NCBI RefSeq assembly: GCF_027023865.1
Contig: NZ_JALVUC010000014.1
Location: forward strand, 1-64,000
Reading direction: 5' to 3'
DNA length: 64,000 nucleotides
DNA from: Thermococcus sp.
GTDB taxonomy: Archaea > Methanobacteriota_B > Thermococci > Thermococcales > Thermococcaceae
Shown here: positions 20,360 through 34,337 of the stretch, in pieces
Numbering within the stretch: position 1 is the stretch's first letter
Layout: every line of letters starts with the position of its first letter
Notes under the pieces: model-generated
The model's database searches: none
What the model was told of the DNA's origin: nothing
The model's input: only the letters and a program-made list of their open reading frames with translations
Made by a program: the position numbers and the translations under genes

Positions 20360-20734
20360 TCACTCCTCAGGACGGTATTCGTCGAGGAGCTTCAATATCT
20401 CTTCCGCCTCCTCCCTGCTGGGCTGGTGAGCCTCCTTGGCGAAGATGACGTGGACGTCAAAGTAGTCCTCAGGGAGAAGGTCAATGAGTTTGGTTGCCAT
20501 CTTCTCGTCGAGCCAGTCAAATAAGCCGACCAGCTTCTCCTTCAGTTCCACAGCCTGCTCAGGCTTGAGCTTTGCAAAGCGCTCGGCATGCTCGAGGCTA
20601 ACCCTTGCCTCGTAGAACATCGGCTCCTCCGGGTTCTCCTCCATTCCCTCCGCCTTGCGCTTTTCGAGGAGCACCTTTACCTCCGCTGTCGTTACGTAGT
20701 GCTCCTCGACCTTCTTCCTGCCTATCATGCTCAT
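20360..20734 (-). CDS. rpoF: DNA-directed RNA polymerase subunit Rpo4 (F)
   Basis: A 124-residue protein homologous to eukaryotic Rpb4. It forms the stalk of archaeal RNA polymerase with Rpo7, which is not in this window. The N-terminal strand ([18 protein letters not shown]) docks on Rpo7 and the C-terminal half is the HRDC-like helical domain ([15 protein letters not shown]). It starts with a four-base ATGA overlap with the L21e stop, so the two are translationally coupled, an arrangement common in Euryarchaeota. Confidence 0.9.
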
Positions 20735-21027
20735 CCCTTCTGCGCCCTGAGGTGGACCGGGTGTATGAAGAAGGTCTTGACCTTGCCGCCGTCCTTTATC
20801 TGAACGACATAGGCGTCGCCGCGCTTGCCAACGACTGTTCCTGTCCTTCCGTGGAACCTCGGGTCTGGCATTCCCCTGTGGTAGCTCGGCTCTATGACGA
20901 TGTGAACCCTCTGCCCTGCTTCAAACTCCTGGAGGAACCTTGTGAGCGGGGGCATACCTCTCCTCCTCGGACTCTTGCCCAGCTTGCCGCGTGTCTTTCT
21001 CCTGAAGCTGTGTGCCTTCTTAACCAT
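20731..21027 (-). CDS. rpl21e: 50S ribosomal protein L21e
   Basis: A 98-residue basic ribosomal protein, the normal length for the family. It shows the SH3-like core ([21 protein letters not shown] and [15 protein letters not shown]) and a basic N-terminus ([15 protein letters not shown]). The ATG at 21027 follows GGGGTGAT; the reading frame starts three codons earlier without support. First gene of the operon L21e-Rpo4-DUF655-RsmA. Confidence 0.93.
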
Positions 21028-21159
21028 TCCAATCACCCCTTAAACCTTTACGGCCTCTAGGCCAGCTCACGTTTACAACATGATACCCACTGTGGGGGCG
21101 CTTTTCGCACCTTTAGATTCAGGACTAACCCCCAGGGAATCACTAAATCCTCCTGGAGA

Positions 21160-21172
21160 GTGTTTATAAATC
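21160..21172 (-). promoter_or_regulatory. promoter of the L21e-Rpo4-DUF655-RsmA operon
   Basis: On the minus strand GAAAGATTTATAAAC is a good BRE/TATA. The predicted start near 21140 leaves a long leader of about 110 bases before L21e. No C/D-box motif or clear fold was found in that leader, but its length is unusual in this genome. Confidence 0.55.
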
Positions 21173-21178
21173 TTTCAC

Positions 21179-22702
21179 TTACCCATTTCTCCAGCGTAGG
21201 AGCAGTGGTAAGAACGCGATGGGGATTACCACCGCTGGACCGCAGATCGAACCTTCTGGTTTCTCTTTCAACGACTTTAACGGCTTGATCACTATAGGAA
21301 TGTCCCCTTTGGTGGCTTTAACCCCAACCCGCCCTTTGAAAGTCTTTACAGCAACTTTACTAGACTTCACGATGACCATGGGGGCCAAGTGAATATGAGC
21401 GGGTTCAACGGTTACCTTAAAGGGATACACCTTAAATGCTTTACCATTGATTACATCTCCAAAGCTCGAAACGATGGCCAAATCCCTGAACGTTCCAATG
21501 CTTCCGTTTAACGCAACGAGACGCCATACTGAGATGAAAGAATTCCCCATAACAGCCATTCCAGAGGGTGCTACAAACGCTTCGGACTCCATTCCTGTGC
21601 CGTTCCCAACGAGAACAAAGCTGCTCTTAACGTTTCCATGTGTGTCCGTTTTCACGACTTCGTAGGTTGTGTCGATCCCAACACAATCAAGGCGGAACGC
21701 TTCAATAATAGCTGGCTGAAAGAAGAGGTTGCCGTTCGATAGGATCAGAGACCGTGTAGGCTCAGTAGACGAGGTACTGACGCTCCTCAGGCTAATGTTT
21801 TGCCCCGTTTCGGTACACTCCTTTATGGGGATGAGACGATAGAGTTTTGACCAGAGGACTGCGTTGTTCTCTATTTCCCCAAGAACGGTTCCGTTTGATG
21901 AACCACCAAGGAAGTAGATGGCTTCCCCGGTACTTGCGGTTGATTTAACGAAGAAGCCCCTTAGGTTGGTTTTGAATTCCTTTACACTTATCACTTCTCC
22001 GTTGGAGCCGAGCCTGGCGTAGTAGTATCTTTTCCCTGAGTCGTGGAGTATCAGATAATAACCCTTTGCAAGTTCTCCAGCCCCCACACTGTAAAGCTCC
22101 CTTGGGCCATGAACGATCCAGTAATCCCTCGCCCACAGAACTTCCCCGCTTCGTCGGTCGAGGGCCAGAACGAGCGGTTTGGAAACGTCTATTCAGTTTA
22201 TGTCGTATTCAACGTGGGTTGTGATTAGGATCCTGTCCCCAGTCTGAACTGCATCGTCAACGAAAGGTATCCATCCTGGACTCACGTTGAGGAGATAATC
22301 TTTCGACCACACGAGCGTTCCATTTTCACTAAGCTCAACGACCCACAGGTCGGTGTGGTTCCCATTCCAGTCACGCCCGATGAGCAGTGTTGAACCGTTG
22401 GCGGTTGCATAGAGGATCCTTGGTGAGTGGAGAAAGTCCCCTTTAACAGCTTCAACCCAGTTAACGGAGCCGTTGCTCTTCAGGTACACAACCCAGGCTC
22501 CCGGAACCACAGGTTTCCCAGTGGAGGTCATGTTGAACGGAACTACGATTACGAATCCATTCTTTCCATCCGCTCCAACGCCGGCTATGGGGTTGGGATA
22601 AGTGATCGTTCCGTTACCCGGTGCCCATATAATGACAGAGCCTTTAACCAATCCTGCCACGAATAGTAACAGCAAGACAAGAAGAGTAACCCTCTTCAGC
22701 AT
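21179..22702 (-). pseudogene. CGP-CTERM surface protein gene split by one in-frame TGA
   Basis: Two open stretches in the same frame (22702-22196 and 22192-21179) are separated only by a TGA at 22193-22195; joined they encode about 507 residues. The first part has a signal peptide (MLKRVTLLVLLLLFVAGLVKG) and beta-propeller-like repeats (SNGSVNWVEAVKGDF, ENGTLVWSKDYLL). The second continues them (SGEVLWARDYWIV, NAVLWSKLYRL) and ends with ICGPAVVIPIAFLPLLLRWRNG, a CGP-CTERM sorting tail seen in Thermococcales surface proteins. The ATG follows GGGGAT. The gene looks otherwise intact, so the mutation is recent, a sequencing error, or read through. The truncated 169-residue product would be secreted but unanchored. 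Confidence 0.8.
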
Positions 22703-22759
22703 GGTATATCCCCAAATACGAATCAGCAGGAAAAATAAAAAGTTTTTCATGAAGGAATA

Positions 22760-23920
22760 CTAATGGTCAAGAATGTTCAGAACGTCGAGCCTCTCGCACC
22801 ACGCCGGTTTCCCAAGCAAGTCGCTCACGCTCGGTCTCGTCCTACCTTTGTCACCTGAAATCAGCTCCTTGATGTAGAGGCCGCCGTCGGTGACAAGGCG
22901 CAACTCAAAGTGCTTTTCGTCAATCCATTTCGCCTCCACCTTGTGAACCCTTTTGATCCTCACCTTATCTGCCCTCACCGTCCTCACGCGCCACGGCGTC
23001 CTCTGGTGGATTTCAATACCTTTCAACTTCCTCGCTACTTCCCCCGCTTCCTCCGGTGTTACACCGTCCTCGACGAGAACTAAAGCGAGATATTCTTTAC
23101 GGTGGTTCTTCGTTAGAACATTCTCGACCTCCTTCGGCGAGACGAAGCGAGGGTTGAGAGCACTGACCTTGCCGCTCGCGTTTATCTCCTCCACTATTGC
23201 GTTTAGATTGAGCTTTCTCTTCTTGGGCCTCTTGATCTCGACGATGAAGGGCCTGCCGTTGCCGAGCATGCGAACGTCAACGTCCTCCCTTCCGGAGCCT
23301 TTGAAGACGCACTTCCCGCCGCTCGCCTTTGAAAAAGCCCGACAGATTATGGAAGCAACACTGTCCTTAAAGCCAGGCATAGGAGTTTGGGGGATACCTC
23401 TGACGAGCTTCCTATAGCGGCCATAAATGTAAATCGGATTGATTTGAAGCTCAATTTCACCGGAATAAGGTTCCATGATAAAGACAACATCAGGCTTCTT
23501 GGAGGTGTCCTTTCCAGTGGCTAAACCGAATGCCTTCCCGAGCTCGCGGTTGAACTCGCGGTTAATCGGCTCTCCAGTATCGATTCCAAACTCCCTCCAG
23601 ATTGCCTCTTCTCTCTCGCAGACCTCTTCCAAAAAACGCGAACCGACGAGAAACGTCTCGAAATCTACTCCCTCGGAAACTTCTTTCATCATCTCAACTA
23701 GTTCGGGAATCCCCTCAAAGACGTTTTCGCAAATCTCACACTTCTCCGGCTCGTTAATGGGGGGTAACCCCTCCGCAGAGCGCTCCATGTTGAGGACGAA
23801 CCTTATTGCCTTTCCCCTCTCCTCGTTGGTGCCCTTTCCGAGCCTCGCGAAGAGTCTGCCGAGGCAGTGATTGCAGAGTTCGTGTCTTTCAAGAACCTCT
23901 CCAGCCTTCTCGACTATCAT
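22760..23920 (-). CDS. pus10: tRNA pseudouridine synthase Pus10
   Basis: A 386-residue archaeal Pus10, which makes pseudouridine 54 and 55 in the T-loop of tRNA. The N-terminal accessory domain carries a four-cysteine zinc site (CNHC and CEIC) and a THUMP-like fold. The catalytic domain has the aspartate in GREDVDVRMLGNGRPF (about 213-228) and the later KELISGDKGRTRPSVSDLLG. It starts 45 bases from the divergent HTH gene. The ATG follows AGGGTGGGAAC. Confidence 0.92.
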   Translation of the reverse strand: MIVEKAGEVLERHELCNHCLGRLFARLGKGTNEERGKAIRFVLNMERSAEGLPPINEPEKCEICENVFEGIPELVEMMKEVSEGVDFETFLVGSRFLEEVCEREEAIWREFGIDTGEPINREFNRELGKAFGLATGKDTSKKPDVVFIMEPYSGEIELQINPIYIYGRYRKLVRGIPQTPMPGFKDSVASIICRAFSKASGGKCVFKGSGREDVDVRMLGNGRPFIVEIKRPKKRKLNLNAIVEEINASGKVSALNPRFVSPKEVENVLTKNHRKEYLALVLVEDGVTPEEAGEVARKLKGIEIHQRTPWRVRTVRADKVRIKRVHKVEAKWIDEKHFELRLVTDGGLYIKELISGDKGRTRPSVSDLLGKPAWCERLDVLNILDH

Positions 23921-33739: not shown

Positions 33740-33942
33740 ATGGGTGTGAAAATGGAAGGGGTTGAGTACATATACGATGAACATGGGCGAATTAAGGGGG
33801 TCATAGTACCCCCTGAGCTGTGGGAGCGTTTGAAAGGCTGGCTTTTGAACCTTCCAAGTACAGGGGTATATACCGAAACAAAAAGGGCCTCAAAGAGAGC
33901 CTGCGGGAGCTGAAGGAGGGATGGGAGGGGGATTTCTGGTAG
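33740..33942 (+). pseudogene. vapB: frameshifted VapB-type antitoxin gene
   Basis: From the ATG at 33740 (or 33752) the frame reads VEYIYDEHGRIKGVIVPPELWERL, a common Thermococcales antitoxin start. Near 33838-33846 the sense shifts to another frame, which reads FEPSKYRGIYRNKKGLKESL and ends with EGWEGDFW at the TAG in 33940-33942. One base has been lost, or two gained. Repaired it would be about 67 residues and overlap the toxin start by 22 bases, the normal layout. The antitoxin is probably non-functional, like its partner. Confidence 0.8.
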
Positions 33943-34337
33943 ACACAAACATCCTCATCTACTACCTCGCCGATGCTCTACCCCGTGAGGAGTTACTGAG
34001 GAGTTACCGAAAATTGAGGAAATTCTTCGCGAGAGCTTCAACATCTCGATAATAACGAAAATAGAGTTCTTGGGCTGGAAAGGGCACACTCCGGAGGGAT
34101 TCGAAAAGTCCAAGGAATTCATTAGCTTCGCCCATGTAATACCTCTAACCGATGAAATAGCAGACCTTGTCATCGAATTAAGGAGAAGGAAGAAGATGAA
34201 ACTTCCAGATGCAGTTATAGCCGCAACAGCCCTAAGATATGGTCTCACACTCATAACGAGGAACGTTGAGGACTTTTGAGGACTTCAAAAGTATCGATGG
34301 ACTTGAGATTTACAACCCGTTCGGGAGGGTTGACTAG
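33921..34337 (+). pseudogene. vapC: VapC-type PIN-domain toxin gene broken by two tandem duplications
   Basis: The start MGGGFLVDTNILIYYLAD is that of a PIN RNase. An 11-base unit (TGAGGAGTTAC) is repeated at 33986-33996 and 33997-34007, shifting the frame; the correct frame then reads LPKIEEILRESFNISIITKIEFLGW through LPDAVIAATALRYG and LITRNVEDF. A second, 10-base unit (TTGAGGACTT) is repeated at 34266-34275 and 34276-34285 and shifts it again, after which KSIDGLEIYNPFGRVD ends at 34337. Removing both duplicates restores exactly 131 residues with all four acidic PIN residues (D8, E, D, D). The gene is inactive as it stands. Confidence 0.88.

Follow-up and report, generated by a model that had tools for sequence, protein, structure and literature searches.

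We found that a gene for a secreted surface protein in Thermococcus sp. is interrupted by a single in-frame TGA codon, probably because this dispensable and horizontally exchanged gene recently acquired a nonsense mutation. Since relatives carry either an intact copy or none, the simplest view is that a dispensable, exchanged surface gene is here at an early stage of breakdown, and not that the stop codon has a special use. It lies between the genes of a Pus10-like pseudouridine synthase (pus10) and ribosomal protein L21e (rpl21e) in the window, the 64,000-nucleotide stretch that we analyzed, which is part of a 96.8-kb contig (C14) of a 26-contig draft genome.

The interrupted reading frame

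On the minus strand, the frame starts with an ATG at 22702, runs for 169 codons (22196..22702), and reaches the TGA at 22193-22195 as codon 170. It then continues for 337 codons to a TAA at 21179-21181, and this 3' part (21179..22192) is open and conserved. The reading frame thus agrees with the single TGA and the 169 and 337 flanking codons described in an earlier note on this DNA. The start at 22702 was favored over 22750 by the N-termini of the orthologues, and a putative promoter, an AT-rich stretch recognized by eye, precedes the gene at 22730..22748.

A search of 60 other Thermococcus genomes returned nine orthologues, which were 46–51% identical to the interrupted copy at full coverage and contained no internal stop. 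Because these uninterrupted proteins of 498–507 amino acids align with it end to end, the 506-codon frame with its one stop is not a product of chance. The frame is broken relative to intact orthologues, which is the disruption that defines a pseudogene. Two further genomes contained a distant homologue with ~26% identity. A search of genome contigs with the single protein as query gave no match, and a search with the alignment as query recovered two loci, both in genomes already counted. A coding-potential scan for stops over the 96.8-kb contig yielded mainly shadow frames of opposite-strand genes; besides these and ordinary gene boundaries, position 22193 was the only in-frame interruption.

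The encoded protein

The gene encodes a protein with a signal-peptide-like start, a predicted beta-propeller, and a CGP-CTERM-like anchor. The signal-peptide-like N-terminus of ~22 residues (MLKRVTLLVLLLLFVAGLVKGS, 22637..22702), read directly from the sequence, coincides with a helix at residues 2-18 of the structural model, and together with the first blades it makes up the part of the gene 5' of the stop. The AlphaFold2 model was all-beta, with a mean pLDDT of 69.9 and a pTM of 0.75, and its confidence was low at the C-terminus and in some of the first ~100 residues. When the predicted model was compared with the PDB, the matches were propellers, with VIA Z scores of 20-26 over residues ~22-418. 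The top match was CylK (Z of 26), YncE had a Z of 23, and the best Foldseek E value was 7.9e-10. The slot protein resembles CylK and YncE in its predicted propeller fold, but the sequence identities are only ~14% and ~12%, respectively, and no common function is implied. A Pfam search of the protein found only a sub-threshold match to PQQ_2. The predicted fold and its structural matches agree with the beta-propeller repeats that had been proposed from the sequence.

In the C-terminal tail (21182..21247), ICGPA precedes a hydrophobic stretch, and the basic end is RWRNG. The tail noted previously is present, and by eye it resembles the tails of the orthologues. Members of the slot family share with the CGP-CTERM proteins of Thermococcales (TIGR04288) their secretion and, at the C-terminus, a Cys-Gly-Pro that leads into a hydrophobic segment with basic residues after it. 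The CGP-CTERM model TIGR04288 matched six of the ten aligned proteins. Unlike proteins of that family, the interrupted copy has a tail that falls below the model, and its protein is cut before the tail. CGP-CTERM domains have so far been found only in Thermococcales, and their function is speculative, perhaps involving lipid modification (PMC4870337).

The codon at the stop

The codons aligned with the TGA in the nine orthologues were AAC, AAC, GGA, GAT, GGA, GAA, GAA, AGA, and GGA, so that the residue at this column is Asn, Gly, Asp, Glu, or Arg and is unconserved. In the AlphaFold2 model, residue 170 lies in a hairpin turn between predicted strands 157-168 and 171-182, which would account for the variability of the codon. 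The two relatives that grouped with the interrupted copy in the tree of slot genes (G008 and G038, support 0.984) both have GGA (Gly) at this position. The earlier note had proposed a TGG or CGA precursor and a comparison of the codon in close relatives. The comparison revealed neither a conserved Trp nor a conserved Cys at the column, and given the variable codons and the Gly in G008 and G038, such a precursor is not indicated.

Recoding, in which the TGA would be read as selenocysteine or another residue or would be passed by programmed readthrough, might be suggested by the long and conserved frame that follows it. We regard this as so unlikely as to be negligible, because TGA is the commonest stop on the contig, no tRNA that reads UGA was found, and the selenocysteine machinery scored below cut-off. 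TGA ends 54 of the 83 genes on the contig and five of the nine orthologues. In the genome, which is 98.7% complete, all matches to SelB, SelD, and tRNA-Sec were below the cut-off, and the best SelB match was an EF-1alpha-like protein. None of the 44 tRNAs that were read had a UCA anticodon. ARAGORN reported no tRNA-Trp, presumably because that gene bears an intron, and left one partial match uncalled; an intron-bearing suppressor tRNA could in principle escape this run as well. Rfam gave no match within 21000-22800, and Cys, Sec, or Trp occurred at the TGA column in none of the nine orthologues. A published survey likewise listed Thermococcales as having neither SelB nor a SelB-like factor (PMC3037878). 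A selenoprotein was accordingly rejected, as the orthologues have only N, G, D, E, or R at this column and the Sec genes are below cut-off. These results agree with the previous statement that Thermococcales are not known to use selenocysteine, and a tRNA able to read TGA, named there as a counterexample, was not seen among the 44 tRNAs. With nine intact orthologues, a variable site, and TGA as an ordinary stop, the simple nonsense mutation put forward earlier was supported.

The slot between pus10 and rpl21e

All orthologues and the two distant homologues lie on the same strand, flanked by pus10 and rpl21e. In this window, the flanking genes, both named from their translations, are also on the minus strand, with pus10 upstream at 22760..23920 and rpl21e downstream at 20731..21036. 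A Pus10 gene was present in 59 of the 61 genomes, and rpl21e was conserved in the readable ones. The promoter box of rpl21e (TTTATAAA, 21163..21170, minus strand) stands directly 3' of the stop of the slot gene, and it was also seen in the empty slots that are shown.

Among the 58 genomes in which both flanks were readable, 12 had an occupied slot, and the other 46 held 123-327 bp instead. The slot was empty in near relatives as judged by the flanking genes (G047, G049, G015, and G020). On the flank-gene tree, at least seven changes of occupancy were needed, compared to a mean of 11 and a minimum of 8 after shuffling, which indicates that occupancy is patchy but non-random.

The phylogenies of the slot and its flanks disagree. 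The genome studied here (G000) has G037 as its sister by flanks, yet the two are 85% identical in the flanks and only 26% identical in the slot, where G037 carries a distant allele. G037 and G055 were 80% identical in the slot and 75% in the flanks, and G040 and G006 were 91% and 87% identical, respectively. The slot allele of G038 grouped with that of G008, whereas its flanks were 91% identical to those of G013, G032, G050, and G010, which carry another allele type. We therefore regard the slot gene as one allele of an accessory cassette that Thermococcus gains, loses, and exchanges between pus10 and the rpl21e promoter, most simply via recombination in the conserved flanks.

The type of the rpl21e leader (21037..21162, minus strand) tracked the slot. 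This genome shares its leader type with G013, G038, and others and differs from its nearest relatives G047, G049, G015, and G020, which suggests that the leader was imported together with the slot gene. Across Thermococcus, the leader sequences (window 21037-21162, L137-L194) fall into no fewer than three types, and conserved blocks are present in each. The type found in G055, G030, G008, G012, and others has a predicted outer stem and inner hairpin. Rfam gave no match for the leader, which could be a candidate regulatory leader of a ribosomal protein gene.

Exchange between species has also diversified the VARTIG modules, which like the slot family comprise secreted proteins of Thermococcales. 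Those modules are multi-gene loci in which variable genes follow a large Ig-domain protein (arCOG07710; PMC8416519), whereas the slot holds a single beta-propeller gene at a fixed position. We therefore rejected VARTIG membership for this single gene with a propeller fold between pus10 and rpl21e. The main text of the VARTIG paper mentions no propeller, CGP, or L21 (PMC8416519).

Recent mutation or base-call error

The columns invariant among the nine orthologues were altered in the interrupted copy at 3 of 56 positions upstream and 7 of 76 positions downstream of the stop (Fisher p 0.52), and downstream conservation was comparable to that of intact orthologues. The gene contained no second stop or frameshift, which under simple assumptions bounds the neutral change since the lesion at ~2-6%. 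The 61 genomes of the genus included no second genome of this species, the best Pus10 identity being 85%. Given the conservation downstream of the stop, the lesion is either recent or a base-call error. An old, decaying pseudogene was rejected, as neither relaxed constraint nor a further lesion followed the first.

The main rival to a nonsense mutation is thus a sequencing or assembly error, with a wrong base in the draft and a gene that is intact in the organism. A lone substitution-type difference, without a further lesion or relaxed constraint downstream, would be expected from such an error, and other genes of the draft are frameshifted, among them one at a C6 run and another whose family occurs in 59 of the 61 genomes. 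We consider an error unlikely, although it deserves more weight than any other alternative, in view of where the lesions in this genome fall. TIGR04288 matched eleven other genes in the genome, of which three were broken (L041, L044, and L047). L044 has a frameshift with nothing missing at the junction, in the widespread family just mentioned, whose open frames are mostly ~670-780 amino acids long. In L047, whose paralogue L048 is intact, the frameshift lies in the C6 run. L041 differs from homologues of ~650 amino acids by several frameshifts and an internal deletion and is therefore a case of real decay, not an isolated error. On C14, the affected genes were the slot gene, a toxin-antitoxin remnant, and a frameshifted secreted gene outside the window (L096, 82975-83919, plus strand). 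Homologues of the last are ~330 amino acids long and open in G046, G045, and G010, and the G038 copy has three stops. Nearly all other gene junctions on the contig were normal, with a start and a Shine-Dalgarno-like motif at 38 of 43 same-strand junctions.

The lesions are therefore concentrated in genes for secreted and other accessory proteins, in a small sample in which surface genes were examined harder than others; the background counts come from one 96.8-kb contig and chosen loci, and the Viterbi frameshift scan was sensitive only to stretches of at least ~90 bases. This concentration favors real gene loss over random sequencing error, to the extent that the small sample allows, and fits a recurrent loss of surface genes in this genome. 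We infer that the lesion at codon 170 is in the organism rather than in the assembly.

Several other loci were noted during the analysis. L044 (G000:C19, ~392.6-394.1 kb) is a CGP-CTERM protein that appears metallophosphoesterase-like by eye, and a frameshift is odd for so widespread a gene. The toxin-antitoxin remnant, a VapB/VapC-like pair by eye at ~33740-34280 of the window (plus strand), was apparently broken by frameshifts and stops. Outside the window, at ~89876-90482 of C14 (minus strand), a small membrane-protein-like frame is adjoined by a second one that has no clear start, which may reflect a frameshift. A partial tRNA-like match (L095, G000:C16, 31086-31135) resembled the 3' part of tRNA-Gly(GCC) and is perhaps the attachment-site remnant of an integrated element.

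Consequences of the stop

The nonsense mutation would inactivate a secreted protein with a signal peptide, a beta-propeller, and a CGP-CTERM-like anchor. Translation would end at residue 169 with the propeller incomplete, and any product would amount to one third of the protein, lack the anchor, and probably be degraded. The loss of membrane anchoring predicted in the earlier note holds in that the anchor is lost, but the effect goes beyond the anchor, with two thirds of the protein gone, including most of the propeller. The case resembles other single-nonsense pseudogenes of prokaryotic accessory surface proteins, which also have one early stop in an otherwise intact frame of a dispensable gene, with intact copies in relatives. 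The only distinction, and not an essential one, is the location of the gene here, in an exchanged slot with a conserved informational gene on either side.

The note had also raised phase variation, a reversible switch-off as part of surface-antigen variation. This one genome has several broken surface genes, two of the frameshifts are within or close to short G/C runs (GGGG and CCCCCC), and the slot is highly variable across species, all of which would be compatible with such switching. At the site itself, however, the stop is of the substitution type, no tract, tandem repeat, or invertible element is visible around it, and none of the other slot copies carries a stop. Phase variation thus finds no support in the local sequence, and we consider it highly improbable. 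A broader proposal has two parts, first that the stretch from pus10 to rpl21e serves as a previously unreported slot in which species exchange surface beta-propeller alleles by flank recombination, and second that this strain is shutting down several surface proteins simultaneously, possibly in response to viruses or other surface-recognizing agents. As a whole this remains speculative, and we think it rather doubtful.

Implications

The stop itself matters little and simply adds another broken accessory gene. At the slot, two conserved informational genes clearly enclose a surface-protein position that may be occupied, vacant, or exchanged, depending on the species. The slot lends itself to studies of surface-gene exchange in Thermococcus and of the reasons why a single genome contains several broken surface genes.
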